Source: Candidatus Kryptonium sp.
GTDB lineage: Bacteria; Bacteroidota; Ignavibacteria; Kryptoniales; Kryptoniaceae
DNA length: 64,000 nucleotides
Assembly: GCA_025060635.1 (NCBI GenBank)
Contig: JANXBN010000003.1
Span: 54,429-118,428 of the forward strand
Reading direction: 5' to 3'
Shown here: positions 18,454 to 24,825 of the stretch, piece by piece
Numbering within the stretch: the stretch's first letter is position 1
How the letters are laid out: each line of letters starts with the position of its first letter
Notes under the pieces: model-generated
Told to the model about the DNA's origin: nothing
The model's database searches: none
Seen by the model: the letters and a program-made list of their open reading frames with translations, nothing else
Program-made: the position numbers and the translations under genes

Positions 18454-19221
18454 TTATTCCTTTTTTGTGGAGTCAGATTTATTGGATAAATCAAACATTC
18501 GCAACCTGCCCACATATGGGACGATTTGATCGCTTTTTAGTTCCCTTAGTTTAAGAATTGTTTGTTCTATTCTGTCTGTGTTTTCTTTGATGATTTTGAT
18601 GTAGGTTTTTATATCTGATGGAAGTTCCTTTTTAAGTAAAATGTTTGCAGCAAGCTTTATAGCAGCAAGTGGATTGTTGACCTCATGTGAAACCGTTATA
18701 ACTATTTCTTGTATCGCTTCAATTTTTTGGGATTGTTCGCCTTTGTCTTTTTCTATTTGCTTTTTTAGGTTTTCCTTTTCAATTGCATTTGTTATAATAA
18801 TCGGCAGAAGAGGTCCAATTATATCTTCTTTCATATAGTAATCAAACGCACCGAGCTTTAAAACCTCGCTCATCACTTCCTTTTCCTTCGCACTTGATAA
18901 CATGATCACAGGTATATCTATATTCCGTGCTTTTATAATTTTAAGAGCTTCAACGCCATTTATTTCAGGTAAGTAGTAATCTAATAAGATCAAATTATAG
19001 TTTTTGGGCATTATTGATAACTTCTCAACCCCTTTTTCTGCTGTATCAACCCAATCAACTGAAAAGAAATAATTTCTATATGAATTGAGATAATACTTTA
19101 TTAAACCCGCAATGCTTGAGTCATCTTCAATCAAAAGAATGTTGATTATTTCTTTGTTTTCAGACACAACACTTATCCCGCTAAATTTATTTTTATGCGA
19201 GTTTTGCAAGAACGCCGACAT
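18454..19221 (-). CDS. Receiver plus DHp (HisKA-like) protein lacking an ATPase domain
   Basis: 255 residues. The receiver domain (about 26-150) has acidic residues EDD at 32-34, phosphoacceptor Asp81 in LLDYYLP, Ser/Thr switch region MLSSAKE, and Lys131. A coiled-coil linker (about 150-170) follows. The DHp helix has the H-box TVSHEVNNPLAAIK with His179, and a second helix runs to about 225. The protein ends about 30 residues later with no N, G1 or G2 boxes, so it cannot bind ATP as a normal histidine kinase. The remaining parts suit a phosphotransfer intermediate or a dimeric phosphatase. It lies 6 bases before the NtrC-type gene, its likely partner. The stop codon is clean and the tail shows no kinase remnants, so it does not look like a recent truncation. 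No clear Shine-Dalgarno precedes the ATG. Confidence 0.85.
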   Translation of the reverse strand: MSAFLQNSHKNKFSGISVVSENKEIINILLIEDDSSIAGLIKYYLNSYRNYFFSVDWVDTAEKGVEKLSIMPKNYNLILLDYYLPEINGVEALKIIKARNIDIPVIMLSSAKEKEVMSEVLKLGAFDYYMKEDIIGPLLPIIITNAIEKENLKKQIEKDKGEQSQKIEAIQEIVITVSHEVNNPLAAIKLAANILLKKELPSDIKTYIKIIKENTDRIEQTILKLRELKSDQIVPYVGRLRMFDLSNKSDSTKKE

Positions 19222-19485
19222 CGTGAGATTTTTTATCGCCTTAATCAGTATGATATATTTAATTTTGCTTCAGCATTTGCCGTTTTTTCCTAATTACCCT
19301 TTTTGAGGAAATTCATTTAATAATACAAATTTTTGAATACAAAATCAAACAAGTTGGTTTCTTTATTATATCTAGCTGACCGCAGGACTTAAAAGATATT
19401 TAAACAGCTGATAAATAAATTTTCTAAAAATTGTGATTTGGAACACATTAATCTAGTTGAATTTTTAAAATCTCTAATTTCTTAC

Positions 19486-19514
19486 TTGACATCAGCAAAA
19501 AAATTTTATATATT
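19486..19514 (+). promoter_or_regulatory. Near-consensus sigma70 promoter in the 655-base gap
   Basis: TTGACA (19486-19491), 17-base spacer, TATATT (19509-19514): a perfect -35 and a -10 with one mismatch to TATAAT. The predicted start is about 19521. No gene begins nearby; the next start codon is 368 bases downstream, past a nested inverted repeat. The tRNA-Ser and secA genes in this window have the same -10 and spacer, which supports this reading. Confidence 0.65.
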
Positions 19515-19520
19515 TAGGCT

Positions 19521-19705
19521 AAGGTAACTGTATTTTGAGGTCATTGAGCCCCTAATTAGTCAGGTTTAATGTTCAAGGGCTTTCTGCAATATAGAGTATC
19601 CTTAATGAGTTGAAGCACATTCTCAAACTTGTCATATAAAAAACCTATATATAACCACCTTAAAAGCCCTACTGAACTAGCATCTTACTGATTATTAGGG
19701 GTAAA
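19521..19705 (+). ncRNA. Candidate structured RNA (rod-like fold, 6S-like outline)
   Basis: Downstream of the strong promoter, nested inverted repeats fold into one long rod. Outer stem: 19549-19563 with 19688-19701, 13 pairs with one T-T mismatch and a one-base bulge. Middle stem: 19571-19583 with 19663-19677, 13 pairs with a 2-base bulge, including AGGGCTTT with AAAGCCCT. Inner stem: ATATAG (19589-19594) with CTATAT (19645-19650). An open region of about 13 x 15 bases and a weak apical stem near 19608-19629 complete it. No open frame of note crosses it. The size and shape, with closing stem, large bubble and apical hairpin, recall 6S RNA, but I cannot match family sequence. It might instead be a long 5' leader of the cargo gene. 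The 3' end is not marked by an intrinsic terminator, so the boundary is approximate. Confidence 0.45.
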
Positions 19706-19782
19706 CTGAAATTAATTGAAAAATTCTTGTTTGTTAAGTTTTGGAATGTATGTTGTAGCGGTGGATGATTAAAAATGCGGGG

Positions 19783-19842
19783 TATAATTTAAATTTTGAT
19801 CAAATTTCCTGATTTTTCTCTATCAAAAGGGAGAAAATCAGG
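19783..19842 (+). promoter_or_regulatory. Candidate -10 element and leader hairpin before the first cargo gene
   Basis: An exact TATAAT lies at 19783-19788 without a good -35 match. The predicted leader then contains a hairpin: CCTGATTTT..CTC (19808-19820) pairs with GAGAAAATCAGG (19831-19842), 12 pairs with one bulged T and a 10-base loop. No T-run follows, so it is not an intrinsic terminator. It may stabilise the mRNA or block read-through from the upstream candidate RNA. Confidence 0.4.
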
Positions 19843-19888
19843 AACGGGATAAAAGCATAGATTTAAAACTAAACTTATGGAGGTAGCT

Positions 19889-22429
19889 ATGACGAGAGTA
19901 ATTCATATTTTTTTGGTGAGCGTATTTTTCAGCTCACTTCTCCTTTCATCTAATGTAGGTTTCACTCCCAATATGGGACAACTTGCCGATTTGGAGGGCA
20001 ATAAGGTTAAAGATGTTATCTTCTATGCCAGTGGTAAAAATTTTAAGATTTTTGTAAAAGATGGTGGAGTTAGTTATGTAATTTATAAAATTGAAGGTAA
20101 AAGTGAAGGTGAATTGAAGTTTAGATTTAAGGATGCTAACAATCCTGATAGAGCTAAACTTGATTATGCAAGGATAGATATAGATTTTGTTGATGCAACC
20201 AAGATTTGGAACGATATTGAGTTCATTAAGCCAATCTCTGGATATACCAATTATTATTATGCTCATTGCCCAGAGGGGATATTGTTTGTCCCAACATATG
20301 AAGAAGTTAAAATCAAGGGAATTTATCCTGGGATTGATTGGATTTGGAAATATGTTGACGGAGTTGTTCACCATGAATTTGTGGTTAAATCAGGATTTGA
20401 TATTGGACAAATAAAGTTTAAAGTAAAATATGCAGATGTTGAAGTTGTTGATGGAAAAGAAATATACTTGAAGACACCGATCGGAGAAATAAAGGATGGT
20501 GAGCTATTTGCCTATGAAATTTCAAGTGGTGCGAAGGTTGATTTAAGATACAAAATTGAAGGTGAAGAGGTAAAATTTGAAGCAAAGGAGAAAATAAATG
20601 GCTCAATAGTTATTGATCCGCCATTGAGTCTTATATGGTCCACATACTATGGAGGTAACTGGCGTGATGATGGAAATTCAATTACAACAGATTTGAATGG
20701 TAATGTGTATATTGCGGGAGTGACACAGTCAGATATTTTTCCGACCTATGATCCTGAAGGATTTGATGACTACTTTCAGGGAACACACGCTGGGGCTATA
20801 GATGATGCTTTTATCTTGAAATTTAATAATAGCGGTGTAAGGCAATGGGCTACTTATTACGGAGGGAATGGCAACGATTACGCTTTTTCGTCTGCAACAG
20901 ATTCATTGGGGAATGTATTTGTGACAGGAGCGACATTGTCAAGAAATTTCCCGACATATAACCCAAGAAATGGGGCTTTCTATCAAGGGAATCTTGGTGG
21001 TATATTTACATATCCTGATGTTTTTATCTTAAAATTTGACAAAAATGGTATAAGAAAATGGGCTACTTATTATGGTGGTTCTGCGGGAGAATATGGATAC
21101 TCAATAACTGTGCATGCTTCAACAGGTATCGTATTTGTCACTGGATATACTGCATCAGAAGATTTTCCGACATATAATCCAGGAATATCCGGCGTTTATT
21201 ATCAACCAAATATCGCCGGGGGTTCAGATGCTTTTATTTTACAGTTTACTAACATCGGAGTAATAAAGTGGGCTACTTATTACGGTGGAAATTATGGTGA
21301 GGTGGGATATGCTATTACAACAGATAAATTTGAAAATGTTTTGCTGACTGGATATACTAATTCAACAGATTTCCCTCTATATAATCCTGGAAACGCGTAT
21401 ATTCAGAATATGCTTAAAGGTAATATTGATGCTTTCATTTCAAAATTCAGCATTAGTGGAGTAAGACAATGGGCTACTTATTATGGAGGGAATAAGACAG
21501 ATGTAGGTTATTCTATCGTAACTGATGATAATGGAAATATATTTGTAGCTGGAGAAACAAATTCAACTGATTTTCCAGTATATAACCCAGGTGGTGGAGC
21601 TTATTTTCAAGATACATTAGGCACTTATCCATCTTTCTCTTACGAAGATGTCTTTATTCTAAAGTTCAATAGTTCTGGACAAAGGATGTGGGCTACTTAC
21701 TATGGTGGGGAACAAACTGACTGGTCACCATCTATTACAACTGATTTAAATGGGAATGTATATGTAACTGGTGCTACTCAATCTAACATATTACCCACCA
21801 GATGTCTTCTTGCTGATTCATATTGCCGAGATAGACCTGCTGCGGGCACTGATATTTTCATTTTGGGATTTAACAATTATGGTGTAAGATTTTGGGCTAC
21901 ATATTTTGGTGGTGCTGTTAATGAAGGGGGTAGTTCTATTACAACTGATTTGCGAGGAAATATATTTGTAACTGGATGGGTTAATAGTACCGCATCTAAT
22001 TATATTCCTTTCCCAACACGAAATCCTGAAGGAGGTGCTTATTTTCAACCAGATAACAATACTATTGGTTGGGGTAATGATGCTTTCATATTGAAATTTG
22101 AAGGTTTGCCAAGAGATTTCGTTGTATCGGTTCAAGATGGGAAAAACGATTTCGCAATCCCAGATAAGTTTGTTTTGTATCAGAACTATCCAAATCCTTT
22201 CAATCCTCAAACAGAAATAAAATTTGATTTGCCTGAATCAGGACATGTTAAGATTGAAGTATATAATTTGCTTGGACAAAGAGTAGCAGTTTTATATGAT
22301 GGGTATATGGAAGCTGGATATAATAAAACTGTTAAGTGGTACACTAAAGAAATGCCAAGTGGAATATACTTTTATAGAGTCACGACAGGTAAATATGTTG
22401 AGGTTAAGAAAATGGTTTTGATGAAGTAG
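19889..22429 (+). CDS. Seven-bladed SBBP-repeat propeller protein with T9SS sorting domain
   Basis: Start chosen at ATG 19889: GGAGG at 19879-19883 is 5 bases upstream, while the in-frame ATG at 19877 overlaps that site. The protein has 846 residues with a signal peptide (MTRVIHIFLVSVFFSSLLLSS). An N-terminal domain starting GFTPNMGQ resembles the domain often found before SBBP repeats. Seven repeats of about 70 residues follow, each with a core like WATYYGG, then 'TD..GNV.VTG.T' and 'FPTYNP', enough for one closed propeller. The C-terminal about 86 residues start FVLYQNYPNPFNP and end VKKMVLMK, a T9SS type A sorting domain. I infer a secreted or surface-anchored T9SS cargo. The binding partner is unknown. 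It is followed 66 bases later by another cargo gene with a related C-terminus. Confidence 0.9.
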   Translation: MTRVIHIFLVSVFFSSLLLSSNVGFTPNMGQLADLEGNKVKDVIFYASGKNFKIFVKDGGVSYVIYKIEGKSEGELKFRFKDANNPDRAKLDYARIDIDFVDATKIWNDIEFIKPISGYTNYYYAHCPEGILFVPTYEEVKIKGIYPGIDWIWKYVDGVVHHEFVVKSGFDIGQIKFKVKYADVEVVDGKEIYLKTPIGEIKDGELFAYEISSGAKVDLRYKIEGEEVKFEAKEKINGSIVIDPPLSLIWSTYYGGNWRDDGNSITTDLNGNVYIAGVTQSDIFPTYDPEGFDDYFQGTHAGAIDDAFILKFNNSGVRQWATYYGGNGNDYAFSSATDSLGNVFVTGATLSRNFPTYNPRNGAFYQGNLGGIFTYPDVFILKFDKNGIRKWATYYGGSAGEYGYSITVHASTGIVFVTGYTASEDFPTYNPGISGVYYQPNIAGGSDAFILQFTNIGVIKWATYYGGNYGEVGYAITTDKFENVLLTGYTNSTDFPLYNPGNAYIQNMLKGNIDAFISKFSISGVRQWATYYGGNKTDVGYSIVTDDNGNIFVAGETNSTDFPVYNPGGGAYFQDTLGTYPSFSYEDVFILKFNSSGQRMWATYYGGEQTDWSPSITTDLNGNVYVTGATQSNILPTRCLLADSYCRDRPAAGTDIFILGFNNYGVRFWATYFGGAVNEGGSSITTDLRGNIFVTGWVNSTASNYIPFPTRNPEGGAYFQPDNNTIGWGNDAFILKFEGLPRDFVVSVQDGKNDFAIPDKFVLYQNYPNPFNPQTEIKFDLPESGHVKIEVYNLLGQRVAVLYDGYMEAGYNKTVKWYTKEMPSGIYFYRVTTGKYVEVKKMVLMK
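20637..22107 (+). repeat. Seven tandem intragenic SBBP repeats, about 200-218 bases each
   Basis: Repeat cores encoding W(A/S)TY(Y/F)GG start near 20637, 20843, 21056, 21268, 21469, 21687 and 21892. Inner copies share DNA such as GGGCTACTTATTA, so recent copying or gene conversion between blades is likely. All are inside the propeller coding region. Confidence 0.85.
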
Positions 22430-22495
22430 AAAAGATTTTTTATCAAACATACAAAATAACAAAACAAACAAAACAACAAAAAAGGAGGCAGAGAT

Positions 22496-24541
22496 ATGAA
22501 GCGAGGATTAATTTTACTTTTGATATATTTTCTTTTTGTTAGTGTTGCATTTGCACAGACGGTAAAAAAGTGGGATCGTGGAGCTAATACTGATAATTGG
22601 AATGATGCTGCGAATTGGAATCCAGATGGTGTTCCTGGTTCAAATGATGAAGTTGTTTTGGATAATACTTATGTTTCTGGTGATTATTCGGTTTATTTAC
22701 CAGGTGGTAATACCACTGTTCAAATCAGGAAACTTGAAATAAGCCCAGCGTCAGGTAGAAGTATATATTTGACTTTGCCGCACACAAATACAGCTAATCC
22801 TGGATTAATGGTTGGTGACAATATATCGGGTAATTATGATATAGTGCTTAAAGACGGTGCTTTTTTGCACAATTTAAGTAGTGCTTCATCTGGTTCTGGG
22901 GTTGCTTTAGGAGTTGGTGATTCGTTGCGTATAGAAAATGGAGGCGTTTATGCTCATCAAGCGATCAGAGATCATGAATCTTTGGTAGATGCACTTTCAA
23001 GGGCACCTGGGACAGAAAATGGAGTGTTTATGTTTAGTATTGGTGGTTCTGGCACATATGCCGTTGCTTCATCTGGGAAAACATATGGATATTTGTATTT
23101 AAGCGGATTACGGACATATACCATCACTGGCAGTTCAAATTTAGTAGTTAGAGGTAACTTTTACATTGGAAGTGATGCTACATTATCAAGCGATATGACA
23201 GGAGATTTTGTTTTTAGAGGAAGTCATTGGCTTAATTACGGAACTTTTACAACATCAACTCAAAAGGTTAAGTTTCAGGGCACAGGGGTACAACAAATAA
23301 CTGGACAAACTACTTTTTATAAACTTGAGATTGATAATCAAAGTGGTGTCACGATATCAGCGGGAATACACGTGACGGATGAGTTGATTTTCACATCAGG
23401 TGTGATAGAACCATTTATGCCATTTTTTGGTGGTGTATCACTCAAGGTCAGTGGTGGGATAAGCGGGGCAGGAGCTGGTAAATTTGTAAGGTATATGCCA
23501 TTAATTATGCCAGTTTCTTCAACTGGTTCAAAGAAATGGGATCTTGGATATGGTAATGATTATTTGCCATTGACGATTAATTTTACAAGTTTAAATGGTT
23601 CAGGTGATGTTGAAGTTAGGGTGTATGATAGGACAAGCTTTTTGGGTCCTCAACCAGGAGATGCAGTGGGTGTGGGTAGTAATCTTGTTTTAAATAGATG
23701 GTATTATGTTTACAAGTCTTCAGGAATTACGAATTTTACGGGTAATTTTACACTTTCATATACTGATGCTGATGTTTCTGATCAGGGCATAAGTGATGAG
23801 AATTCGCTTCGTGTGTTTATGTGGGATGGGACGCAGTGGCAGGAGTTGTCAGTTACGAGCAGAAACACGGTGAATAATACGATAACTGTTTCAAATGTAA
23901 ATGTGAACACGCCATATGTTCATCTTGTAATATCAGGTACTGGCGATACGCCATTGCCAGTAAGTTTGAAATCATTTGTTGCAAAGGCAGTAGGCAATAG
24001 GGTTCAATTGATGATTGAGACGGAGACGGAGGATAGAGGTTTTAGTGGATTTAATGTATATCGCAAGCAGGAGGGTGAAGAGTTTAGGATGGTAGCAACA
24101 TATGTTAATGATGTTAATTTGAAGGCGAAAGGTGAGGAAGCTTTTGGTGCGAGGTATAAATGGGAGGACAATTCAGTTGAGTCGGGTAAGAGATATTATT
24201 ACAAGATAGGAGCAGTTGGTTTGTTAGGTGAGAGATTGATTGATAAGGTTGTTGAGATTGTTGCTGGTGAGGTTCCGAGTTCATTTGTGTTGTATCAGAA
24301 TTATCCGAATCCATTTAATCCGACGACGACGATAGAGTTTGGTATACCTGTGGATTGTGATGTAAAGTTTGAGTTGTTTAATTTGCGAGGGGAGCGGGTT
24401 GCTGAGTTGATAAATAAGAGATTGGAGGCTGGTTATTATAGTGTTGAAGTTGATTTTAGCGGGATGCCAAGTGGGATATATTTTTATAGGTTGAGAGCGA
24501 ATAATTTCGTTAGTGTTAAGAAAATGGTATTGATGAAGTGA
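22496..24541 (+). CDS. Secreted T9SS sorting-domain protein (putative surface cargo)
   Basis: 681 residues with a signal peptide ending VAFAQ. An AAAGGAGG Shine-Dalgarno lies just upstream, after an A/C-rich leader with few other bases (22444-22484). The N-terminal region (KKWDRGANTDNWNDAANWNPDGVP) is the type found at the start of large Bacteroidota surface proteins with beta-helical repeats. The middle is Gly/Ser/Thr-rich and beta-strand-like. A segment from about LPVSLKSFVAKAVGNRVQL to GLLGE resembles a fibronectin-III-like domain. The last 85 residues (FVLYQNYPNPFNP to VKKMVLMK) are a T9SS type A sorting domain, closely similar to that of the preceding gene. Codon use shifts in the last about 700 bases toward TTG, GAG and GGG, unlike its neighbours. 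No enzymatic motif is visible, so the function beyond export is unknown. Confidence 0.85.
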   Translation: MKRGLILLLIYFLFVSVAFAQTVKKWDRGANTDNWNDAANWNPDGVPGSNDEVVLDNTYVSGDYSVYLPGGNTTVQIRKLEISPASGRSIYLTLPHTNTANPGLMVGDNISGNYDIVLKDGAFLHNLSSASSGSGVALGVGDSLRIENGGVYAHQAIRDHESLVDALSRAPGTENGVFMFSIGGSGTYAVASSGKTYGYLYLSGLRTYTITGSSNLVVRGNFYIGSDATLSSDMTGDFVFRGSHWLNYGTFTTSTQKVKFQGTGVQQITGQTTFYKLEIDNQSGVTISAGIHVTDELIFTSGVIEPFMPFFGGVSLKVSGGISGAGAGKFVRYMPLIMPVSSTGSKKWDLGYGNDYLPLTINFTSLNGSGDVEVRVYDRTSFLGPQPGDAVGVGSNLVLNRWYYVYKSSGITNFTGNFTLSYTDADVSDQGISDENSLRVFMWDGTQWQELSVTSRNTVNNTITVSNVNVNTPYVHLVISGTGDTPLPVSLKSFVAKAVGNRVQLMIETETEDRGFSGFNVYRKQEGEEFRMVATYVNDVNLKAKGEEAFGARYKWEDNSVESGKRYYYKIGAVGLLGERLIDKVVEIVAGEVPSSFVLYQNYPNPFNPTTTIEFGIPVDCDVKFELFNLRGERVAELINKRLEAGYYSVEVDFSGMPSGIYFYRLRANNFVSVKKMVLMK

Positions 24542-24557
24542 TAAAATAGTTTCTTGT

Positions 24558-24603
24558 CCCTCTCTCTACTTTGTGTGGGGAGAGGGATTGTTTGATTTTT
24601 TTA
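24558..24603 (+). terminator. Intrinsic terminator after the cargo genes
   Basis: CCCTCTCTCT (24558-24567) pairs with GGGGAGAGGG (24577-24586), ten pairs counting two G-T wobbles, with a 9-base loop. The T-rich tract ATTGTTTGATTTTTTT follows. Confidence 0.75.
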
Positions 24604-24620
24604 ATGATAGAGTTTATATT
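24592..24620 (+). promoter_or_regulatory. Candidate promoter of tRNA-Ser
   Basis: TTGATT (24592-24597), 17 bases, TATATT (24615-24620). The predicted start near 24627 is 12 bases before the tRNA. The -35 is embedded in the T-tract of the preceding terminator. Confidence 0.5.
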
Positions 24621-24638
24621 TTAAAGTGAGTTTTGGTT

Positions 24639-24729
24639 GGAGAGGTGGCCGAGTGGATGAAGGCGCACGCCTGGAGAGCGTGTAGCCCGCCAAAAAGCGG
24701 GCTCGTGGGTTCGAATCCCACCCTCTCCG
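24639..24729 (+). tRNA. tRNA-Ser (anticodon GGA)
   Basis: The acceptor stem GGAGAGG pairs with CCTCTCC, discriminator G at 24729. The D arm contains GAGTGGATGAAGG. The anticodon stem CACGC/GCGTG encloses the loop CTGGAGA, anticodon GGA reading UCC/UCU. A long variable arm, AGCCCGC with GCGGGCT, marks a class II serine tRNA. GGTTCGAATCC forms the T loop. The CCA end is not encoded. Confidence 0.97.
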
Positions 24730-24749
24730 CTTTTCCACTTCCGACAATT

Positions 24750-24778
24750 TTGTTTATGACCCTAATTATTTTTATATT
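24750..24778 (+). promoter_or_regulatory. Candidate sigma70 promoter of the secA run
   Basis: TTGTTT (24750-24755), 17 bases, TATATT (24773-24778). The predicted start near 24785 gives a leader of about 40 bases to the secA ATG. Confidence 0.45.
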
Positions 24779-24825
24779 TCTACCTGAAACAAATTAAAAA
24801 CAATCTTTTGCTTAATTAAAAGGGT

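Follow-up and report, generated by a model that had tools for sequence, protein, structure and literature searches.

In the window, by which we mean the whole 64-kb stretch of DNA analysed, the region of interest lies between a divergent upstream gene on the minus strand (18454-19221), whose product has a receiver domain and HisKA, and a downstream gene on the plus strand (19889-22429) for a T9SS cargo protein of 846 aa with DUF7948, SBBP beta-propeller repeats and a Por_Secre_tail. The product of the divergent gene is short, with the receiver followed by HisKA only and no ATPase domain; this gene adjoins an NtrC-type regulator and is conserved in the genus. Window positions 19222-24800, which separate the regulator pair from the tRNA-Ser/secA block, form a variable site, with different genes in each congener. 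The best start of the cargo gene is the ATG at 19889, preceded by the Shine-Dalgarno sequence GGAGG read at 19879-19883 on the plus strand.

The spacer contains a sigma-70-type promoter on the plus strand (19486-19514), consisting of TTGACA (19486-19491), N17 and TATATT (19509-19514) and having 11 of 12 consensus matches. The first-pass annotation had reported this promoter and an absence of gene starts over the following 368 bases, and both have been confirmed: transcription would start at about 19521, judging from the promoter, and the cargo ATG lies 368 bases past this point. It is the only consensus promoter within the spacer and is oriented toward the cargo gene, and no minus-strand promoter was detected close to the structured region described below. 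A TATAAT at 19783-19788, which has no -35 box, could be a candidate nearer promoter for the cargo gene.

Because TTGAC-N18/19-TATATT occurs 47 times in the organism's own genome, as against 8 times for the reversed control, we regard it as a true promoter type here. Almost all copies are found shortly upstream of genes, rRNA, tRNA or CRISPR arrays: about 30 of the 47 are at most 230 nt from an ORF start, two stand ahead of the 16S rRNA operon, two ahead of tRNAs and one ahead of a CRISPR array that was read directly, a second array having the identical promoter, while the remainder comprises about five matches within genes, the unclassified locus L141, and two or three close to contig ends that were left unjudged. 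The directly read array (L137, G000:C4:171016-172500) has the repeat GTTTGAATCGCACCTGTGAGGGATTGAAAC and stands immediately after a TTGAC-N18-TATATT promoter; the identical promoter (L147, G000:C9:900-2417) is near another contig end. Since nearly all mRNA-type copies have an ORF no more than about 230 nt away, the promoter class serves mRNAs. The promoter in the spacer is a clear outlier of this set, since the next ORF is 362-368 nt away; such a distance would suit a long leader and an independent RNA alike.

Downstream of the promoter, three nested inverted repeats had been described from the sequence, and all their arms are present at exactly those positions; RNAfold yields the same three helices on the plus strand. 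The outer helix H1 pairs CCCCTAATTAGTCAG (19549-19563) with CTGATTATTAGGGG (19688-19701), the middle helix H2 pairs GTTCAAGGGCTTT (19571-19583) with AAAGCCCTACTGAAC (19663-19677), and the weak inner helix H3 pairs ATATAG (19589-19594) with CTATAT (19645-19650). The 153-nt core of this rod has a folding energy of -36.2 kcal/mol (z -2.8; 3/200 shuffles), and looser boundaries weaken the signal (z -1.6 for 200 nt; z -2.3 and 18/1000 shuffles for 186 nt). The unusual part of the rod is its long-range nesting: 36 of its base pairs bridge 80 nt or more, a number equalled by one of 1000 dinucleotide shuffles, and no shuffle among 1000 matches it in both long-range pairing and stability. Among 912 sub-windows of the 64 kb, only that of the rod joins such long-range pairing with equal stability. 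The rod is thus somewhat better than chance, and these statistics are suggestive rather than conclusive because the site was picked post hoc among about 340 independent windows of the 64 kb. The rod is predicted to fold independently within the full leader, and the minus strand of the region folds about equally well; an RNA from that strand has been rejected, given the lack of a minus-strand promoter near the rod. Its GC content is 35%, as compared with 25% upstream and 30% downstream, yet one quarter of intergenic windows reach 35%. On neither strand does the spacer contain an ORF longer than 29 aa, and a small protein gene has been rejected.

A gene for reverse gyrase, a marker of extreme thermophily, is found near a contig start (G000:C13:22-3168; 1080 bits), and a thermophilic lifestyle is therefore supported. 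In being a genome of the FCB group with T9SS sorting domains, reverse gyrase and CRISPR, the present one resembles 'Candidatus Kryptonia', which is known from springs of about 70 C (PMC4737851). When the temperature is raised from 37 to 70 C, the predicted pairing probability changes from 0.8-0.9 to 0.76-0.86 for H1 and from 0.94 to 0.81-0.84 for H2, whereas H3 melts (from 0.66 to 0.07). H1 and H2 persist at 65-75 C, and the z-score of the rod at 65 C is -2.8. Since only H3 melts, what had been proposed as one rod with a large internal bubble holds for its two solid outer helices and is better called two stacked helices (H1 and H2) round a loose AU-rich loop of about 80 nt. Per 100 nt, the rod retains -6.3 kcal/mol at 70 C, about one third of the per-base stability of proven structured RNAs of the organism (-18 to -21 for its own 6S RNA, its tRNAs and the start of its 16S rRNA, which have a GC content of 51-66%).

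The rod is single-copy in its own genome. No homologue was detected in six congeners or in about 110 genomes of greater distance, whether DNA was searched in 119 relatives or a covariance model made from the one sequence was run on 100 genomes, even when all candidates in the six congeners were scored; the only above-background similarity in relatives is the promoter itself. An alignment near the regulator genes of one congener (G003), with a score of 45, was discarded as an AT-rich chance match because the shuffle maximum over all comparisons was 46.5. The rod is absent upstream of the orthologues of the response regulator and of the cargo gene. The divergent regulator has orthologues in five congeners, where the adjacent genes are different ones and the rod is missing; these genes are, as we read the translations, presumably an outer-membrane-like gene in G001 and G003 and a KaiC/RecA-like ATPase pair in G004-G006. 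Of the cargo orthologues, that of G003 is the nearest (55% identity); it lies beside the same tRNA-Ser/secA block with an unrelated upstream region, and upstream sequences of the cargo orthologues in G001 and G004 are likewise unrelated to the leader with the rod, so that a conserved leader of the cargo gene has been rejected. A repeated or mobile element has also been rejected on the basis of the single copy and the lack of matches in phage or plasmid records, and an exact-pattern search of viral contigs gave no match to the rod. On this comparison, the rod appears to be specific to one species or strain lineage.

Because the spacer has no consensus promoter other than that of the rod, we consider the most likely reading, held at about even confidence, to be that the promoter starts a 368-nt leader of the cargo gene, of which the rod forms the first part, lineage-specific and not 6S RNA. 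In this mechanism the promoter would start a transcript near 19521 that probably reads through into the cargo gene at 19889; the first 200 nt of the leader would fold into H1 and H2 stacked round the loose loop, and the role of the rod may be a generic one only, such as 5'-end protection or spacing, or none. The sequence from the rod to the cargo gene gave no terminator-like site. A second leader element, a perfect 11-bp hairpin (TTCCTGATTTT/AAAATCAGGAA; 19806-19844, plus strand; -17.6 kcal/mol at 37 C for 19804-19846), lies 45 bases ahead of the cargo start codon and is not a typical terminator because no U-run follows it. The absence of a better promoter nearer to the cargo gene, the presence of the real 6S RNA elsewhere and the lack of conservation of the rod in any relative are also counted for the leader. 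Against it, a leader of 368 nt would exceed all others of the promoter set; apart from those at contig ends, the remaining exact promoters more than about 230 nt from an ORF drive rRNA, tRNA or CRISPR arrays, and the TATAAT mentioned above could be a promoter nearer to the cargo gene. Furthermore, no cis-regulatory mechanism is visible, because the predicted pairing of the Shine-Dalgarno sequence and ATG is 0.50 both with and without the rod. Long structured bacterial 5' leaders of riboswitch or thermosensor type likewise have a promoter, a structured stretch, a Shine-Dalgarno sequence and an ATG on one strand, but the rod differs from them in that it matches no riboswitch in Rfam, shows no terminator/antiterminator switch, does not affect the predicted Shine-Dalgarno pairing and is absent from orthologous leaders. 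A 5' leader of the cargo gene, one of the readings offered by the first-pass annotation, would thus be the best fit.

The same annotation had also offered an undescribed small RNA, and we regard as a tentative possibility an independent lineage-specific RNA of about 185 nt, from 19521 to near 19705, that belongs to no described family. The strong promoter followed by 368 nt without an ORF, the fact that all other exact-class promoters lacking an ORF close by serve rRNA, tRNA or CRISPR arrays, and the persistence of H1 and H2 at high temperature with a z-score of -2.8 at 65 C argue for it; the missing terminator after the rod, the lack of comparative support, with no relative carrying the rod, and the low GC content and per-base stability argue against it. 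The fuller claim, that this is a recently arisen, structured small RNA of an undescribed family with its own promoter in a thermophilic Bacteroidota-like member of the FCB group, is rather improbable.

Unlikely as well is the explanation in which promoter and leader are real and the rod is a fold that arises by chance in a fast-evolving spacer. This would be consistent with a signal that varies with the chosen boundaries, with a site picked after the fact, and with absent conservation and low GC content in a genome with reverse gyrase, but it fits poorly with long-range pairing so rarely reached by shuffles and joined to equal stability in no other sub-window, and with outer helices that survive high temperature.

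A divergent 6S RNA, proposed for the rod on account of its long rod shape, open centre and length near 185 nt, is refuted as the main 6S RNA and has been rejected, since a clear 6S RNA stands elsewhere in the genome and the rod scores at noise level. The recommended Rfam check, including RF00013, gave no match on the rod at the gathering cut-off or at E<=5, and three spacer matches with E<5, all outside the rod, are eukaryotic or archaeal noise. With lineage-specific 6S models and filters off, the rod reaches at most 1.8 bits, as against 52.5 bits at the true 6S locus. The model R3, built solely from four 6S sequences of the sister family, has its only match in this genome on another contig, outside the window, at G000:C1:281598-281841 on the minus strand, between zapA and rny (E 1e-12). 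Although the rod shares the general shape of SsrS RNA, it is not beside zapA, is AU-rich and is unconserved; as to a central bubble conserved across relatives, it has a predicted open loop, but no relative carries the sequence.

R3 finds the zapA-rny 6S RNA in all six genus genomes searched. In the sister family, RF00013 gives two genomes above the cut-off and weaker matches in others, located between zapA and a gene that we take, from its protein, to be that of RNase Y. The RNA in the zapA-rny gap of the genus is about 220-236 nt long and strongly conserved (e.g., L051:1235-1470); RF00013 does not report it at E 0.1, and eight of its base pairs are backed by two-sided changes. It represents a divergent 6S RNA, genus-wide and overlooked by Rfam. 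In proteobacteria, too, zapA and ssrS are known as neighbours (PMC7641849).

If the leader reading holds, the gene for the secreted protein simply has a long 5' UTR of an ordinary kind; a small RNA, if that is what the region encodes, would add another to the orphan sRNAs beyond the reach of comparison alone. The more useful by-product is the 6S RNA of the genus at the zapA-rny locus, for which a lineage model now permits searches.
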